Source of the DNA: Bacteroidia bacterium
GTDB taxonomy: Bacteria > Bacteroidota > Bacteroidia > UKL13-3
Reading direction: 5' to 3'
NCBI GenBank assembly: GCA_025454875.1
Contig: JALONP010000001.1
Coordinates: forward strand, 62,001 to 126,000
DNA length: 64,000 bases
Shown: one piece after another, positions 24,306 to 43,248 of the stretch
Layout: each line of letters begins with the position of its first letter
How positions within the stretch are numbered: position 1 is the stretch's first letter
The notes under the pieces: generated by a model
What the model saw: only the letters and a program-made list of their open reading frames with translations
The model's database searches: none
Told to the model about the DNA's origin: nothing
Made by a program: the position numbers and the translations under genes

Positions 24306-24309
24306 ATCT

Positions 24310-24707
24310 TTTGTGCAATGCGATAAGCCGGGTTCTGTACCTTGGTTTAACCCAAAGTGGTTACCATTTATCTGGGATATGTTTCGCAACATACCTCTAG
24401 CAGCCTACCCACCGGAATTGAACGAGTAGCTCTTAGCGCCATTGCTGGCGCGCTCCGGCCTATTTGGCCTTACAACCCGTGAGGTTTACCCTGCCATTTG
24501 CATTGCTGCAAAAGCGGTGGTCTCTTACACCACCTTTTCACTATCACCTCTGTTATTGCAAAAATAACTGAGGCTACTTCTTTTCTGTGGCACTTGCTGT
24601 CAATGCAACTTCACAATTGCATTGCCCACCCGTTAGGTGGCACGGTACTCTGTGTTGCCCGGACTTTCCTCACCACCTTGCGGCAGCGCGGTAACCTGCA
24701 TTACGCA
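24310..24707 (-). ncRNA. rnpB: RNase P RNA, bacterial type A
   Basis: The catalytic RNA of RNase P, which trims 5' leaders from pre-tRNA. Read on the minus strand, it contains the universally conserved GAGGAAAGTCCGGGC and, near the 3' end, ACAGAACCCGGCTTAT. The two ends can pair to form helix P1: TTTGCGTAATGC (24709-24698) with GCATTGCACAAA (24321-24310), 11 of 12 pairs including one G-U. A perfect -7 element, TACCTTTG, lies at 24717-24710, so transcription probably begins within a few bases of 24707. The apparent ORF at 24498-24788 on the plus strand is a shadow of this RNA. Confidence 0.95.
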
Positions 24708-38084: not shown

Positions 38085-38103
38085 TAAGCGCTCAATCTAT
38101 TTT

Positions 38104-38137
38104 AAAAAGGCAACTGGCTTAGGCTGGTTGCCTTTTT
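38104..38137 (+). terminator. Terminator-like hairpin after the GH16 gene
   Basis: AAAAAGGCAAC (38104-38114) pairs with GTTGCCTTTTT (38127-38137) around a 12-base loop, followed by more T. It lies 19 bp after the stop. An almost identical hairpin recurs at 39050-39080 inside the cassette array as part of a duplicated block. Confidence 0.8.
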
Positions 38138-38180
38138 TTGTATTAGTAAGATGCAAACTTAATTGGCTTTGTACTGCAGA

Positions 38181-38322
38181 CGATAAGATTTTGGCGACCT
38201 TTCTCCTGATAGGTATTGGAAGGCGGGACGAAAATCTGTCAAGCCAAGATAACTAAAAATGCGAAACGAAATATTGAATTTTAGTAAGTTAACGACAATG
38301 GCGCAAGGCCGCTGTTATAGAC
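38181..38322 (-). other. Degenerate attC-like site ending the array
   Basis: Read on the minus strand, R'' GTCTATAAC (38322-38314) and the following CAGCGGCCTTGCGCCATTG resemble the site at 39124-39268. The R' position now reads CTTATCG (38187-38181) where the other site has GTTAGTG, so the invariant GTT core is lost. It belongs to a block (38104-38324) that is an imperfect duplicate of 39048-39273. It is probably inactive for recombination and marks the far end of the array. Confidence 0.5.
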
Positions 38323-38331
38323 CGTAATATC

Positions 38332-38769
38332 TTACGAAAGATTGTCGATATCGTCCAAGTCTCTGAGCCGACCAGATTCTTTTTTGTTTTTTAGTAGGTC
38401 GTTGTAGCCAATAAAGTCTACGAGAAGACCTTCGATTTCAACCTGGGTCTTATTCTGATAACATTCACTGAATGTTACTCCGTCTATTTGTGTCAGTAGG
38501 TCAATTCTTAGTGGAGGATATCCTAATTGAATAATATTCCCTTCTTTAGTGAAGTCGTCTTGTTTTAATCCATAAGAAGCGAAACCAAATTCATTCACAC
38601 AAGCTAAAATTCTGTCCGCATTCTCTTGAGTAGGGTTCAACCAAATATTTAGGTCTCCCGTGTAGCGCGGGTGTCCATGAATACCAACAGCATAACCACC
38701 CACAATTAGATATTCTGCCTTATGATTGATTAATAATTCTACAAACTCTTTGAAGTCTTGGCTGAACAC
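38332..38769 (-). CDS. Nucleotidyltransferase-fold protein (MNT/AbiEii-like)
   Basis: A 145-residue protein with the nucleotidyltransferase signature GGYAVGIHGHPRYTGDLNIWL (residues 24-44). The usual metal-binding Asp-x-Asp here reads Asp39-Leu-Asn41, so the second carboxylate is changed. It begins with a GTG that lies inside the preceding 60-residue gene (50-bp overlap); the N-terminus MFSQDFKEFVELL fits what I recall of related proteins. With the small upstream gene it resembles a two-gene toxin-antitoxin-like module and fills one cassette. Confidence 0.7.
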   Translation of the reverse strand: MFSQDFKEFVELLINHKAEYLIVGGYAVGIHGHPRYTGDLNIWLNPTQENADRILACVNEFGFASYGLKQDDFTKEGNIIQLGYPPLRIDLLTQIDGVTFSECYQNKTQVEIEGLLVDFIGYNDLLKNKKESGRLRDLDDIDNLS

Positions 38770-38902
38770 CTTTCTTTAAGCTAAAATATTGTTGTCTGAG
38801 AATTTCAATCGTGTCTAAACGTTCTGAAAGGCTTCGAGTCGACCAATATGCAAAGTCTGACGAGCGGTCTTTCAAGTTGGTTATTTTGAGAACTTTCTCC
38901 AT
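38720..38902 (-). CDS. Small partner protein of the nucleotidyltransferase
   Basis: A 60-residue protein (MEKVLKITNLKDRSSDFAYW, then SERLDTIEILRQQYF and RLQRVCRIIN). It resembles a family of about 60-residue proteins with the pattern SxxERLdxlexLRxqY...RlqRVyrii that I recall as encoded just upstream of such nucleotidyltransferases. It overlaps the downstream gene by 50 bp, which suggests coupled translation. A role as antitoxin or cofactor is inference. Confidence 0.6.
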   Translation of the reverse strand: MEKVLKITNLKDRSSDFAYWSTRSLSERLDTIEILRQQYFSLKKGVQPRLQRVCRIINQS

Positions 38903-38940
38903 GATTCGAATATAATTCTTTTTTGCGACTGTTCAATTAT

Positions 38941-39097
38941 GTCCTATCACTAACAGCTTACCGTAATAGTTACAATATTAAAACTTTATGGGCTTTGTAT
39001 CCTTACTAAGCTGAATAATTACATTGCTACAACACTAAGTACATTTTTCAAAAGGCAACTGGCTTAGGCTGGTTGCTTTTTTGTATTCGTTAGATGT
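38941..39097 (-). other. attC-like site of an ORF-less micro-cassette
   Basis: On the minus strand R'' is ACATCTAAC (39097-39089) and the right end reads GGTAAGCTGTTA followed by the next unit's start GTGATAGGAC (38950-38941). The stretch 38948-39037 is nearly the same as 40563-40650 in the site downstream of the membrane-protein pair. The unit between 39130 and 38950 has no ORF, only this site and a copy of the GGCAAC/GTTGC hairpin (39050-39075). The match of R'' to the unit's own start (GTTAGTGTT) needs a one-base insertion. Confidence 0.45.
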
Positions 39098-39123
39098 GCA
39101 CTTAATTGGTTTTGTAAGATAAA

Positions 39124-39268
39124 CACTAACGTTTGGCCGCTTGGTGCTATTGCCTCCCGAAACATCGGGATACGGAAAGTTAATTTGTTATGCTGTGATA
39201 AAAAAAGAGAAACGAAATATTTAATTTTAGCAAGTTAACGGCAATTGCGCAAGATTGCTGTTATAGGC
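39124..39268 (-). other. attC-like site downstream of the VapBC-like cassette
   Basis: On the minus strand: R'' GCCTATAAC (39268-39260), spacer, L'' CTTGCGCAATTGCC, a variable loop region, L' GGCAATAGCACCAAG, spacer, R' GTTAGTG (39130-39124). L'' and L' pair over CTTG/CAAG and ATTGCC/GGCAAT with small interruptions, the classic attC layout. Total 145 bp. R'' matches this cassette's own start (TTATAGGC at 40019-40012) and not the following R', as expected for an integrated cassette. Confidence 0.65.
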
Positions 39269-39280
39269 TGGCGGATTAGT

Positions 39281-39694
39281 CTAGTTGGGAATAGCAATAA
39301 AGGTCTCCGGTGTCATCACCTTTATTGTTGCTTTTTTATAGTCTTTGATGTTTCTGGTAACGATTGTTGTCAAATTGTTTTCTATTGCGCAAGAATATTG
39401 AATTGCGTCTTCAAAGTCATTGAAATCTGATGCTACAGCTAAATCTATTGTCTTGCTGTCAACAGGCAGTACATTCACAATTGTTTTGAACTGCCCAATA
39501 ATTTGTCTAGAATGCGCTGTTGAGTATTGTGAGCGTAAAACGTAATCAATGTTGGCAAAAGATAAAGAGGAGACATAAATTTTAATTTTACCGGAGTCAG
39601 CAAGCGAGAATAAAATTTCTGCTGCTTTGTTAAATGGCTTTCGTCCCGATAGCAAGTCTAAACATACATCGGTGTCAACAAATACTTTGGTCAT
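39281..39694 (-). CDS. PIN-domain toxin (VapC-like)
   Basis: From the ATG at 39694 the protein has 137 residues, the size of PIN-domain ribonuclease toxins. It begins with the first acidic motif FVDTDVCLDLL (Asp7, Asp9) and later has DFNDFEDAIQYSCA, which contains the central acidic residues, and VTRNIKDYK near the C-terminus. The antitoxin stop lies just 1 bp upstream. A longer reading from 39766 would overlap the antitoxin gene by 71 bp and lacks a PIN-like N-terminus. Confidence 0.88.
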   Translation of the reverse strand: MTKVFVDTDVCLDLLSGRKPFNKAAEILFSLADSGKIKIYVSSLSFANIDYVLRSQYSTAHSRQIIGQFKTIVNVLPVDSKTIDLAVASDFNDFEDAIQYSCAIENNLTTIVTRNIKDYKKATIKVMTPETFIAIPN

Positions 39695-39695
39695 C

Positions 39696-39941
39696 CTATT
39701 TGGCGTATTTGTTTGATAGATGTTTTTTGTAGTCTTTTTTGTAGTCAACGTTTTTAGGTAGCTCAACTACTCCGGATAAACTTTTTACCAATGGAGTCAC
39801 ATCTTGAGAGTCTTGTGGGTTTACAAGTAATCCAAGATATGATTCTATTAATTTTGAAAGGCTGGTATTTTTCTTTTTGGCATAAGTCTTTGCCTTTTCA
39901 ATTACAGAATTGTCCAGCTTTAAAGTAAGTTTGGTGTTCAT
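39696..39941 (-). CDS. Antitoxin of the PIN-domain pair (DUF6364-like)
   Basis: An 81-residue protein beginning MNTKLTLKLDNSVIEKAKTY, with KKNTSLSKLIESYL, a ribbon-helix-helix pattern. The C-terminal half is mixed charge (VVELPKNVDYKKDYKKH), the likely toxin-binding tail. Antitoxin-first order and the 1-bp spacing to the PIN gene support a type II module. Both genes lie inside one cassette bounded by attC-like sites. Such modules are common in integron arrays, where they are thought to stabilise the array. Confidence 0.85.
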   Translation of the reverse strand: MNTKLTLKLDNSVIEKAKTYAKKKNTSLSKLIESYLGLLVNPQDSQDVTPLVKSLSGVVELPKNVDYKKDYKKHLSNKYAK

Positions 39942-40011
39942 GTCAATTTATTATACGTACAAACATAAACAACTTATACGTAAGAATCAAATGGTTATCG
40001 ACAGGCCGCTT

Positions 40012-40086
40012 GCCTATAATGTTTTGTAGCCTTACGCTGTTGCCTCCCGATAGCTATCGGGATGACGGAAAACCGCTGTTAGCGGG
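40012..40086 (-). other. attC-like site downstream of the lipoprotein cassette
   Basis: On the minus strand: R'' CCCGCTAAC (40086-40078), then a stem that includes the perfect 16-bp palindrome CCCGATAGCTATCGGG (40046-40061), and an R' position reading ATTATAGGC (40020-40012), where the invariant G is replaced by A. At 75 bp it is the shortest site in the array. R'' matches the lipoprotein cassette's own start GTTAGCGGC (40565-40557) at 8 of 9 positions. Confidence 0.6.
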
Positions 40087-40118
40087 TGGCTTCCTCATCG
40101 TTAGCATTGTTAATTGAG

Positions 40119-40550
40119 TTATTTTAAGTAGTCCTCCAAGTTAACCGAAACATACTGAGCACTTTTGTAATTGTAGTCAGCAAGATTTAGTTCTAAAGTA
40201 TAATAAAGGTGTTTTTCGTGCAGTATAAACGGGTCGCCCTTGTTAGCCTGAAGCTTAAAGTGTTGTCCATTTATATAGAAATGATGATTGAATCCTCGTG
40301 TCACAAGGTTTAATATTCCATTGTCCATTCCTGTGTGTTCGTGTTTGAAGTCTACAGAATTGTCTGTGGTAATTACATGATACTCGAAAATTGTGTCCAC
40401 CTTTTGTAGGTGATTTTGATAAATTGTCTTTACTTTTTCTGGCAAAGAGTCGAACGGAAGATGTTGCCTTTCAATATTGTCAATATCTTTCGTGCCACAA
40501 GCCGAAATGAGAATTGTCGTGCATAAAATGAATATGGTTAGTCTGCTCAT
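40119..40550 (-). CDS. Hypothetical lipoprotein (cassette-borne)
   Basis: A 143-residue protein with a lipoprotein signal (MSRLTIFILCTTILISAC, lipobox ISAC). The mature domain is rich in His, Tyr and Asp (FKHEHTGMDNG, FNHHFYINGQHFKL) and I recognise no family. It is the only gene in a cassette of about 545 bp, starting 15 bp inside the cassette boundary, as is usual for promoterless cassette genes. Confidence 0.6.
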   Translation of the reverse strand: MSRLTIFILCTTILISACGTKDIDNIERQHLPFDSLPEKVKTIYQNHLQKVDTIFEYHVITTDNSVDFKHEHTGMDNGILNLVTRGFNHHFYINGQHFKLQANKGDPFILHEKHLYYTLELNLADYNYKSAQYVSVNLEDYLK

Positions 40551-40557
40551 AAGCTTG

Positions 40558-40689
40558 CCGCTAACTAACGGCTTACCGTAATAGTTACAATATTAAAACT
40601 TTATGGGATTTGTATCCTTACTAAACTGAATAATTCCATTGCTACAACACTTTACTAGCGCCAATTGCCCCCAAGCAAATGTTAGCGGT
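40558..40689 (-). other. attC-like site downstream of the membrane-protein cassette
   Basis: On the minus strand: R'' ACCGCTAAC (40689-40681), L'' containing GCTTG, a long imperfect stem, L' GGTAAGC, then CGTTA and R' GTTAGCGG (40565-40558). About 132 bp. The stretch 40563-40650 is close to identical to 38948-39037. R'' matches the cassette's own start (GTTAGCTGT at 41354-41346) at 8 of 9 positions. Confidence 0.65.
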
Positions 40690-40701
40690 AGTGCTGTTGT
40701 C

Positions 40702-41013
40702 TTAACCCAATAGATGACCGTCCCAAGGTAATTCTGGCCCACGATAAATTGTCAGCATAAGAATTGTATAAACGCAAGATGCTATTAACACTGTCATGAG
40801 AATTAGTGCCAAAAGTTTTCTTGTTTTAAAGTCAATTTTTCTTGTTTTCCAGAATGCAACTGTTGTGAAGACAATCCAGAGAATAATTGCGTACAGGTAT
40901 ACATAATCACCAAGACCAAGTCCAAATGTCACCCACCCTTTGTCCATTTCATAGAGTACCCATGCAAAGAATATGTAAGTCAATATAAATGTAGCCTTAA
41001 TAGATGTATTCAT
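40702..41013 (-). CDS. Small membrane protein (cassette-borne)
   Basis: A 103-residue protein with three or four hydrophobic helices (ATFILTYIFFAWVLY, YLYAIILWIVFTTVAFW, LLALILMTVLIASCVYTILML). No family is recognised. It follows the 106-residue membrane protein gene by 10 bp with no attC site between them, so both genes travel in one cassette and are probably expressed together. Confidence 0.55.
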   Translation of the reverse strand: MNTSIKATFILTYIFFAWVLYEMDKGWVTFGLGLGDYVYLYAIILWIVFTTVAFWKTRKIDFKTRKLLALILMTVLIASCVYTILMLTIYRGPELPWDGHLLG

Positions 41014-41023
41014 GTCAATCGCC

Positions 41024-41344
41024 TTAATTATACAGAAAGATTAGTCCGCAAACAGATGAGCCAACTCCTAAAGCAAATATCAGAAAGGTCTGCAAAATAT
41101 GTGATAAAGTTTTAAGCTCTTGCTGTCTGTATAATCTCCTTGTCCAGAGAGCAAGTAACGCATAGAATAATGTAACAAGTATAAATCCTAAAGCGAAAAG
41201 CGTGTCAGCTATTTCAGCTCCACCTAAAGAAGCAATGTTATAGAGATACTTCGCCCAAACGGTCAATATAAAGAGTCCACATAGGGCTAAGTAGAAGAAC
41301 AATATTTTTAAAGCTGTCCTTAGTTTCATTGTGACTATTTGCAT
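41024..41344 (-). CDS. Small membrane protein (cassette-borne)
   Basis: A 106-residue protein with about four hydrophobic segments (ILFFYLALCGLFILTVWAKYL, ADTLFALGFILVTLFYALLALW, ILQTFLIFALGVGSSVCGLIF). The ATG at 41344 lies 9 bp inside the cassette boundary; a second ATG at 41329 (MKLRTALK) is equally possible. No family is recognised. It pairs with the membrane protein gene 10 bp downstream. Confidence 0.55.
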   Translation of the reverse strand: MQIVTMKLRTALKILFFYLALCGLFILTVWAKYLYNIASLGGAEIADTLFALGFILVTLFYALLALWTRRLYRQQELKTLSHILQTFLIFALGVGSSVCGLIFLYN

Positions 41345-41348
41345 TACA

Positions 41349-41481
41349 GCTAACGGTTTGCCGCTTGCCGCAGTGGGGGATTTCGGAGCACTTCACTGTC
41401 AACCAAGCACAAATGTTGATAGAAGCACTGCACTTGATTTAACCACTTCAGCCCCCATTGCGGCAAACGGCTGTTGGCGGT
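41349..41481 (-). other. attC-like site downstream of the DUF262 cassette
   Basis: The clearest site of the array. On the minus strand: R'' ACCGCCAAC (41481-41473), spacer AGCCG, L'' TTTGCCGC (41467-41460), a loop region with additional pairing (GAAGTG/CACTTC, GGGGG/CCCCC), L' GCGGCAAA (41364-41357), spacer CC, R' GTTAGC (41354-41349). L'' and L' are perfectly complementary over 8 bp, and the unequal spacers (5 and 2) fit the unpaired central spacer of attC. R'' is a 9/9 match to the cassette's own start at 43087-43079. Confidence 0.75.
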
Positions 41482-41489
41482 AGTTTTTC

Positions 41490-43040
41490 TCAGTTTTTCA
41501 ATGTCGTGTTGCAAAATGGATGAGTTATTTGTCCGTTATCAATTGTTCCTAGTCCACCGTCTTGTTTTCTTTCAATATGGTCAATTGAAATTGAATTTCT
41601 ATGAATGTAACCACCACATATTTTACATTTTGGAGCATTAGCGAGTGCTTCTTTTATGTAAACAGCCGATTTTCTTTCAGTTGAAAATTTGTTAGTCGTT
41701 ATTTCATTTTGTTCTACAGTCAATGTGAGATAATTGAACTTACTTGTTTTTATCAGTTGTGTAATAACTTCGTTTTCATTTACTCCCTTTTGAAGAAGCT
41801 CAATTATTGCAAAATAAAAATCCTTAATCTGACTGTAGCTTGCTATCGCACTTCTGTATTTCCTATTTATCTGTTGAATTAGTGGGTCATTTTGCAATAA
41901 GATATTTTCAAATTGCGGTCTTACTAGACTGAACTCCTTTAGTTTATTCTTTTCTTCAAGCTCTTTTACAAATGCAAGTGTTGCATAAAATGAAGCGACC
42001 TTATGTCTGCCGTCTTGCGAGTAGAAATAAACAACTGGGTGGAGACCTAAAGAAGAAGGATGATTGTTGTTTATTCGCCAAGCAATTCGTCTTGTCTGCT
42101 TTAATATATTAACGGTTTCGTCACCTGTTAAATCATCTTCTAAACTCTCTTTAAAGTCCGTTGGAATATTGTTTACTATGTTTATAAACTCAAGAATCAA
42201 TGGCAATGTTTGTGCAGAATAGTTTTTACCGCCTACTGGTATGTCCAATGTTTTAATTGGCGTTTCGAGTTTTGGAGCAAAAAGAACTGAGTTGATTTCT
42301 TTTGCTAGTTCTTGGATTGTTATCTGATTCCCTTTTGAAAAGTTGGACCAATACTTGTGTCCTTTACCACTTCGAATAATAGCTCTTGCAGCAATACAGT
42401 TAGGTTTTTTTCTCGCTTCTAACAAAACCAATTCAGTCTTGTCAATAGGTGCTGCTTGCTGGTTTATTTTAAAAAATGAATTTTCTGCCTTATTTGCACC
42501 ACCATCAACCCATTGTAACTGAATTGCTAATGCTGCAAGGTTCTTAGCTTTTCTCTGAATTTCAGGTGATACTTTTTCAGGATTAGTTAATGCTAATTTG
42601 AAGTCAGAATAAGAGCCAATTCTTTTCCGAATTAGTTTACGGGTTTCTTCTGCAATATCAATTTGTTCATCAGGAATAATACCGTCATAAAATTGTTTTG
42701 AAATTGGTCCATCTCCATAGTCGTCATTTATCCAAGCAGCCAAAGAACTAAGTCTGTGTGAACCGTCAATTACAAACAAGTAACCACCGGTGCTTCTCCA
42801 CAAAATAATTGCGGGGATAAGGTCTCCATCTAGAAAGCTATCAATAAAGTCAGCAATTTTTTTGCTGTCCCATTCATTTGTCTCTCTTTGAAAGTCTGGC
42901 TTACGAACATTAGAAAAAAAGAATGAGTCTGATTTTATGTCTTCAATTGAAAGTGTTTCTTTCTTTTTTCCTGGAGTTGCGTTTTCTTCAACTTCAAAGT
43001 CTTCTCTTGGTATTATTGCGTCTAGGTTAACCTTTGCCAT
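41490..43040 (-). CDS. DUF262 (ParB-like) protein with C-terminal HNH nuclease motif
   Basis: A 516-residue protein. The N-terminal DUF262/GmrS-like domain has KPDFQRETNEWDSKKIADFIDSFL and the nucleotide-binding-type motif DGSHRLSSL (residues 92-100; the family usually has DGQQRLTSL). The C-terminus holds an HNH-like zinc site: Cys472-x2-Cys475, Asp487-His488, Asn502, His507 and Cys510. DUF262-HNH proteins are related to modification-dependent (type IV) restriction systems, so a role in defence is plausible but inferred. It occupies a whole cassette of about 1.73 kb. Confidence 0.8.
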   Translation of the reverse strand: MAKVNLDAIIPREDFEVEENATPGKKKETLSIEDIKSDSFFFSNVRKPDFQRETNEWDSKKIADFIDSFLDGDLIPAIILWRSTGGYLFVIDGSHRLSSLAAWINDDYGDGPISKQFYDGIIPDEQIDIAEETRKLIRKRIGSYSDFKLALTNPEKVSPEIQRKAKNLAALAIQLQWVDGGANKAENSFFKINQQAAPIDKTELVLLEARKKPNCIAARAIIRSGKGHKYWSNFSKGNQITIQELAKEINSVLFAPKLETPIKTLDIPVGGKNYSAQTLPLILEFINIVNNIPTDFKESLEDDLTGDETVNILKQTRRIAWRINNNHPSSLGLHPVVYFYSQDGRHKVASFYATLAFVKELEEKNKLKEFSLVRPQFENILLQNDPLIQQINRKYRSAIASYSQIKDFYFAIIELLQKGVNENEVITQLIKTSKFNYLTLTVEQNEITTNKFSTERKSAVYIKEALANAPKCKICGGYIHRNSISIDHIERKQDGGLGTIDNGQITHPFCNTTLKN

Positions 43041-43248
43041 ATCTTAATATTATTGTTCTTGTGTCGTCACTTAAAATTACCGCCAACTCTCAAATACCAG
43101 CATTAGTCTTCTAAATATTCAAAAGTTTACCCTTCAAAAATACCCATTTCACAATATCCTTCTCCCACAAGTTATCCAACGTTGATAACTTGATATGATT
43201 TGATATCGGCTTCGGCTGATTATCTTCGCCCTTTATTTAGCATTCATT

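Follow-up and report, generated by a model that had tools for sequence, protein, structure and literature searches.

A partly decayed cassette array in a Bacteroidota genome that probably belongs to an integron type whose recombinase lacks the I2 domain

Results

Genes, attC-like sites, and cassette ends of the array

The window, a 64,000-nucleotide stretch of DNA from a Bacteroidia bacterium, contains eight small open reading frames (ORFs) at 43087–38181, all on the minus strand and in a single direction, which an initial annotation had described as a cluster of attC sites lacking an integron integrase (CALIN). We located five attC-like sites in this array: sites A, D, and E with R1, a covariance model built from 21 related sites aligned over 139 columns, and sites B and C by their cassette ends. 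Site A is among the R1 training sites; D and E lie outside the training set.

The first cassette (41354–43087) starts with GTTGGCGGTA at 43087, the array end given in the initial annotation and the exact G of the first GTT; it carries a DUF262/GmrSD_N-HNH gene (41490–43040) and ends in site A. Cassette 2 encodes two small membrane proteins (41024–41344 and 40702–41013), cassette 3 a lipoprotein called as an ORF (40119–40550), and cassette 4 (39281–39941) a toxin-antitoxin pair, composed of a DUF6364 antitoxin (39696–39941) and a PIN_3 toxin (39281–39694). The last segment (38332–38902) comprises calls for a nucleotidyltransferase-like ORF (38332–38769) and an overlapping ORF of 60 amino acids (38720–38902). 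In the Pfam search, matches in the array were confined to GmrSD_N/HNH, DUF6364, and PIN_3, in agreement with the toxin-antitoxin and DUF262-HNH cargo named by the initial annotation; the two membrane proteins, the lipoprotein, and the nucleotidyltransferase-like pair, whose name was assigned by eye, are without Pfam family. The HNH protein gives only a weak match to NsnA in PADLOC (30 bits), and nothing in Rfam matched the array spacers.

Site A (41348–41479, 132 nt, minus strand like all sites described here) is the strongest site, as the initial annotation had proposed for 41349–41481. It has an intact R''-L''-L'-R' layout and the top R1 score (117.8 bits, E 1e-23), and its single-stranded DNA folds at −27.0 kcal/mol for the bottom (plus) strand (z −3.3 versus shuffles) and at −25.3 kcal/mol for the top strand (z −2.1). 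Site D (39124–39266) scores 64.4 bits and site E (38181–38320), the final site of the array with a degenerate R', 49.0 bits; folding alone of D and E is no better than chance when compared with shuffles. Sites A, D, and E thus score clearly in the covariance-model check that the initial annotation had called for. Sites B and C were missed by R1. Site B (about 40558–40690) pairs weakly, uses the second GTTAG (40565) as R', and is recognized by the match between R'' and cassette end; site C (about 40014–40085) is short, with R'' CCCGCTAAC at 40078 and R' ATTATAGGC at 40020, decayed to ATT. A half site, F (38949–39036), duplicates the R' half of site B as an 88-nt direct repeat of 95% identity. 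An inverted-repeat scan for attC-like pairs gave strand-symmetric output and failed to recover known sites, the R boxes being flanked by unequal spacers.

In an integron, an integrated cassette takes its 5' end from its own attC, and this end is therefore expected to be complementary to the cassette's own R'' and not to the R'' of the physically preceding site. Four of the five window cassettes show this complementarity, with 5–6 of 6 bases outside the core: the HNH cassette matches its own R'' at all ten bases (43087 and 41473), the membrane cassette at nine of ten (41354 and 40681), and the lipoprotein cassette (40565 and 40078, the better of two adjacent GTT motifs being chosen) and the toxin-antitoxin cassette (40020 and 39260, GTT decayed to ATT) at eight contiguous bases each. 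Among random GTTR/YAAC pairs in the window, 5 of 6 bases outside the core are reached in 0.8%. The four cassettes are therefore as expected for units cut at G^TT, and ORFs, sites, and ends together substantiate the minus-strand cassette array of the initial annotation. Site E and the adjoining GH16 bidirectional terminator (38100–38320) are duplicated inside the array at 39045–39266; this duplicated end, attC plus terminator, suggests a past rearrangement at the end of the array.

Distribution of the sites and movement of cassettes

Across the 21 aligned sites, 15 of 21 stem pairs vary on both sides yet stay paired, and 92.7% of cells are paired versus 68.8% after shuffling and 32–39% when the alignment is slid. 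The R''-side and R'-side spacers of these sites are unequal, as in attC. R1 detects nine sites in the window's own genome (E up to 1) and 54 in its genus-mate G001, and 53 of 58 genomes (the window's own and 57 others) hold at least one site. In a sample of 296 genomes drawn evenly across Bacteroidota, sites occur in 133 genomes and 80 of 140 genera (E up to 1e-4); in 20 genomes of other phyla, none was found at E up to 1e-3.

We compared cassette 5' ends with R'' boxes over 53 intervals between consecutive sites. Identity at positions 4–9 amounts to 75% with the cassette's own R''; the R'' of the same physical site gives 41%, and shuffled partners give 39%, never exceeding 45% over 200 shuffles. 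Cassettes also recur in different contexts. Two G001 arrays lying 2.65 Mb apart share an identical 968-bp cassette, which is internal in one array and occupies the first position, at attI, in the other; its flanks are 33% and 42% identical, and identity stops at G/TTA. G016 and G003 carry versions of an 807-bp cassette with 96% identity, in an internal position in G016 and first at attI in G003.

Recombinases lacking the I2 domain

The initial annotation had implied a canonical IntI as partner of the array. This part of its proposal did not hold: in the 58 genomes, no protein scored above the cut-off of TIGR02249, a model that the positive control IntI1 matches with 507.5 bits over its whole length. 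Partial matches are present in every genome, and a recurring set of proteins covers model positions 2–181 and about 236–315, skipping the IntI-specific part. When aligned to VchIntIA (2A3V), the recombinase skips residues 202–242. In the Bacteroidota proteins, 59–61 residues separate the KDR and LRHS motifs, with one exception at 65, whereas the distance is 102 in IntI1 and one Calditrichia protein; the short spacing in the Bacteroidota proteins indicates that the 41-residue I2 domain is absent. In IntI, the I2 domain docks extrahelical bases of attC. It also serves to define integron integrases (PMC7790495), a definition under which these recombinases do not fall. A search for this domain would miss the likely partner of the array.

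The invariant catalytic residues of tyrosine recombinases are present in the I2-less recombinase, and many members of the group carry an N-terminal extension of ~80–90 residues. An AlphaFold model, weak overall (pLDDT 77, pTM 0.47), has XerA and VchIntIA as its top PDB matches. A tree of 70 rows separates the Bacteroidota proteins from IntI1 and from the two Xer proteins of the window's own genome, although open forks and several long rows make its deep placement insecure; recombinases linked to R1 sites are scattered among the Bacteroidota proteins rather than forming a single clade. Matches in a phage collection are merely partial and more distant.

attI-like junctions beside the recombinase genes

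Comparison by BLAST of the window spacers with the stretches around TIGR02249-partial genes revealed copies alongside these genes, mainly downstream and on the same strand; raw likeness of this kind was used as a lead only. At 12 recombinase-headed loci, we looked in the sequence following the recombinase gene for the start expected of a first cassette. An attI-like junction matching at nine of nine positions lies 49 or 98–106 bp away in 10 of the 11 loci other than L036 by one count, and in 9 of the 12 loci by another. A match of the same quality is farther away at L083 (+392), and a convincing match after the recombinase is absent at L036. Four platforms in G001 (L037, L065, L069, and L070) have attI sequences that are alike save small differences, followed by different first cassettes that diverge at GTT.

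An independent scan of loci from named genomes, which lie outside the R1 training set, placed 45 of 48 R1 sites downstream of the recombinase and on its strand, in searched sequence comprising more upstream (175 kb) than downstream DNA (121 kb). At 13 of these loci, attI-like matches of 8–9 of 9 positions lie between +77 and +160, and most of them have a core resembling ATATANNNA/GTT. Many of the related arrays start at an I2-less recombinase, with the attI-like junction ~50–160 bp from its gene. L118 is a divergent platform, with attI 5' of the recombinase gene and a nine-of-nine match. L164 (15995–31383), on a Chryseobacterium plasmid, is a complete-looking platform of a recombinase followed by six R1 sites, and its array contains an annotated IS110 transposase and a group II intron reverse transcriptase.

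The recombinases in L040–L043 and L080, which resemble IS91-associated elements, were set aside; most of them are opposite in orientation to the nearest sites, those in L041–L043 lying at a constant 1085–1090 bp from a site. Some attC sites of G001 appear to have received insertions of IS91-like elements that encode a tyrosine recombinase of their own, beside the R'-side GAAC (L041, 2301–3450; L042; L043; and L037, 15211–15380).

The window's own genome and its genus-mate

Contig C26, which carries the array, contains neither a TIGR02249 match nor a match to the recombinase, so the description of a CALIN with no integrase nearby stands. The sole recombinase of the I2-less kind in this genome (G000) is encoded on contig C10 (80463–81563) and clusters in the tree with L118 and the platform of Flavobacterium enshiense (support 100/99). 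Divergently, ~110 bp upstream of it, lies a candidate attI with cassette start, GCGTATACATCAGA/GTTAGCGGTCACCCTAAAAGAC, and the contig ends within this candidate cassette, before its own R''. Further sites are located at the end of contig C15 (two) and near the end of C6 (one). The window array is locally integrase-less, with a candidate enzyme encoded in the same cell, and could be mobilized in trans by the C10 recombinase. Many contigs end inside or beside arrays or recombinases (C10, C15, and C6 in this genome, and contigs of several relatives); draft assemblies probably undercount both.

In G001, of the same genus, the hrpB gene has an S8 peptidase gene as its neighbor, and a 16-kb stretch there contains no cassettes and no GH16 homolog. 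The hrpB neighborhood thus differs, and the position of the array is not common to the genus; fixed ancestral synteny, which the initial annotation had named as evidence that would speak against an array, does not apply to the region. Elsewhere in the window, an ordinary bacterial RNase P RNA (RF00010, 267.9 bits) is located at 24308–24707 on the minus strand.

Resistance cassettes next to I2-less recombinases

For resistance-gene loci, we relied on existing public records; the comparison for blaVEB covers L168 (6000–7785), L172 (2900–3958), and L171 (2501–3577). In Klebsiella michiganensis and K. pneumoniae plasmids, a piece of a recombinase of this family lies upstream of blaVEB-3. The junction CGGATATTAGGGA/GTTAGCGGTAATTT is found 74 bp past the stop of this piece, so that blaVEB-3 takes the first-cassette position at an attI-like junction behind a fragment of an I2-less recombinase. 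In a class 1 integron, this blaVEB cassette begins at the same G, and its 133-nt attC reaches 42.3 bits with R1. According to published work, this attC contains one extrahelical base and is recombined poorly by IntI1 (PMC3518468). Judged by these boundaries, the I2-less Bacteroidota system and class 1 integrons appear to share the blaVEB cassette.

Recombinase fragments sharing 54% identity with the G001 enzyme precede tet(X3) and tet(X5) by ~190 bp (L166, 2967–5117; L167, 4516–7415; L170, 4986–7130), where a 'xerD' gene beside tet(X) has often been noted (PMC7473080, PMC11194056). An apparently broken attC 3' of tet(X3) scores just 12.6 bits with R1 (E 0.38), and the best BLAST match of this attC-like remnant is 31 nt at 90% identity to a site of the window's genome (E 2e-5). 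Given this weak score and short match, the link of tet(X) to the I2-less system is suggestive only.

Discussion

The window array is very probably a partly decayed CALIN of a Bacteroidota-wide integron type with an I2-less recombinase, as judged from sequence comparison. It combines clustered attC sites (three by R1 and two more by cassette ends, where a CALIN calls for at least two) with a neighborhood free of integron integrase; covariation across the 21 aligned sites and the fold of site A point to foldable R''-L''-L'-R' attC sites, and the cassettes are bounded at G^TT. An attI lies beside the recombinase gene in relatives and, as a candidate, on C10 in the window's own genome; none was seen at the window array. 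The larger point is the type of recombinase, and in the open-access literature (subscription papers and preprints being outside its scope) our search found no report of an I2-less Bacteroidota integron type. With less confidence, but still on the favorable side, we propose that a distinct and common class of Bacteroidota integrons captures attC cassettes without I2 and has been a source of some resistance cassettes, namely blaVEB and perhaps tet(X).

In the proposed mechanism, each cassette would consist of a gene or gene pair and an attC of roughly 132 nt able to form a hairpin. Exchange at G^TT would let cassettes circularize and insert again, as suggested by their boundaries, the complementary ends, and an identical cassette in two contexts. 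New cassettes would enter at an attI ~50–160 bp from the recombinase gene, to which the near-constant distance and the four-copy platform point. Exchange would be performed by an IntI/XerA-like tyrosine recombinase without I2, a role consistent with linkage, catalytic residues, and the lack of canonical IntI.

Several observations weigh against this interpretation. The role of the I2-less recombinase in exchange is inferred, and cassette capture by IntI reportedly requires I2 (PMC7790495). The training sites of R1 came mostly from beside I2-less recombinases. Several recombinases of the group have no R1 site within reach, which may reflect short contigs, other attC types, or a lack of linkage. 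In the window, three of five sites are weak or decayed, the nucleotidyltransferase segment shows no cassette-end match, and a clear attI at 43087 was not found.

The reported need for I2 lends some weight to an alternative in which the cassettes are genuine but owe their capture to a canonical IntI supplied by a plasmid or transient element, the I2-less recombinase being a mere neighbor; IntI1 does use the blaVEB attC, if poorly (PMC3518468). We regard this as improbable, since no canonical IntI was found in the 58 genomes searched, 53 of them with sites, while the attI-like junction keeps a near-constant distance from the I2-less gene across genera and has been copied along with it in G001. 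Still far less probable is that the spacers are dispersed repeats of the repetitive extragenic palindromic (REP) or miniature inverted-repeat transposable element (MITE) kind, lying between genes that are not mobile units. The sites are indeed repeated, palindromic, and intergenic, and some are single, for example on C6 and C1 of the window's own genome; this leaves unexplained the matching of cassette 5' ends with R'', the identical gene unit in two contexts with ends at G/TT, and the link with attI and recombinase.

A third alternative concerns only the window copy and is compatible with the interpretation as an I2-less integron type: the array may be a dead remnant, consisting of long-ago arrivals, perhaps at a secondary chromosomal site, that are now immobile. 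The decayed R' of sites C and E, half site F with the duplicated terminator, and the missing clear attI at 43087 make this a serious possibility, to which we give somewhat less than even weight; site A is intact and the ends of the first cassette are perfect.

If the proposed class exists, its large I2-less group would allow the origin of integrons to be studied by natural comparison, and standard finders would list loci with complete integrons as CALINs only or miss them altogether. A mechanism would also suggest itself for the 'xerD' gene beside tet(X), as would a source of the blaVEB cassette.

Like IntI-type sedentary integrons and CALINs, the system described here has small, mostly co-oriented cassettes, folded R''-L''-L'-R' attC sites with a G^TT crossover, ends complementary to their own attC, attI beside the integrase gene, and toxin-antitoxin cargo. 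Unlike them, its recombinase is without I2 and often carries an N-terminal extension, and attI is mostly 3' of the recombinase gene with co-directional cassettes, the L118/L007 subgroup being divergent. The same I2-less domain layout is found in XerA/XerC-like recombinases (NCBIfam NF040815), which the L065 protein matches with 233.8 bits against a cut-off of 220. Housekeeping Xer recombinases act on dif-like sites and are not known to have cassette arrays; in the tree, whose deep placement is not firm, the recombinases described here are separate from the XerC/XerD-type proteins of the window's own genome. An integron-like tyrosine recombinase subgroup has been delineated (Smyshlyaev 2021, PMC8138268), and in the parts of that paper drawn on here its I2-less members are not tied to attC arrays or attI. 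The blaVEB cassette of class 1 integrons has the same G/TT 5' boundary and an R1-matching attC, and its carrier there is an IntI1 platform.

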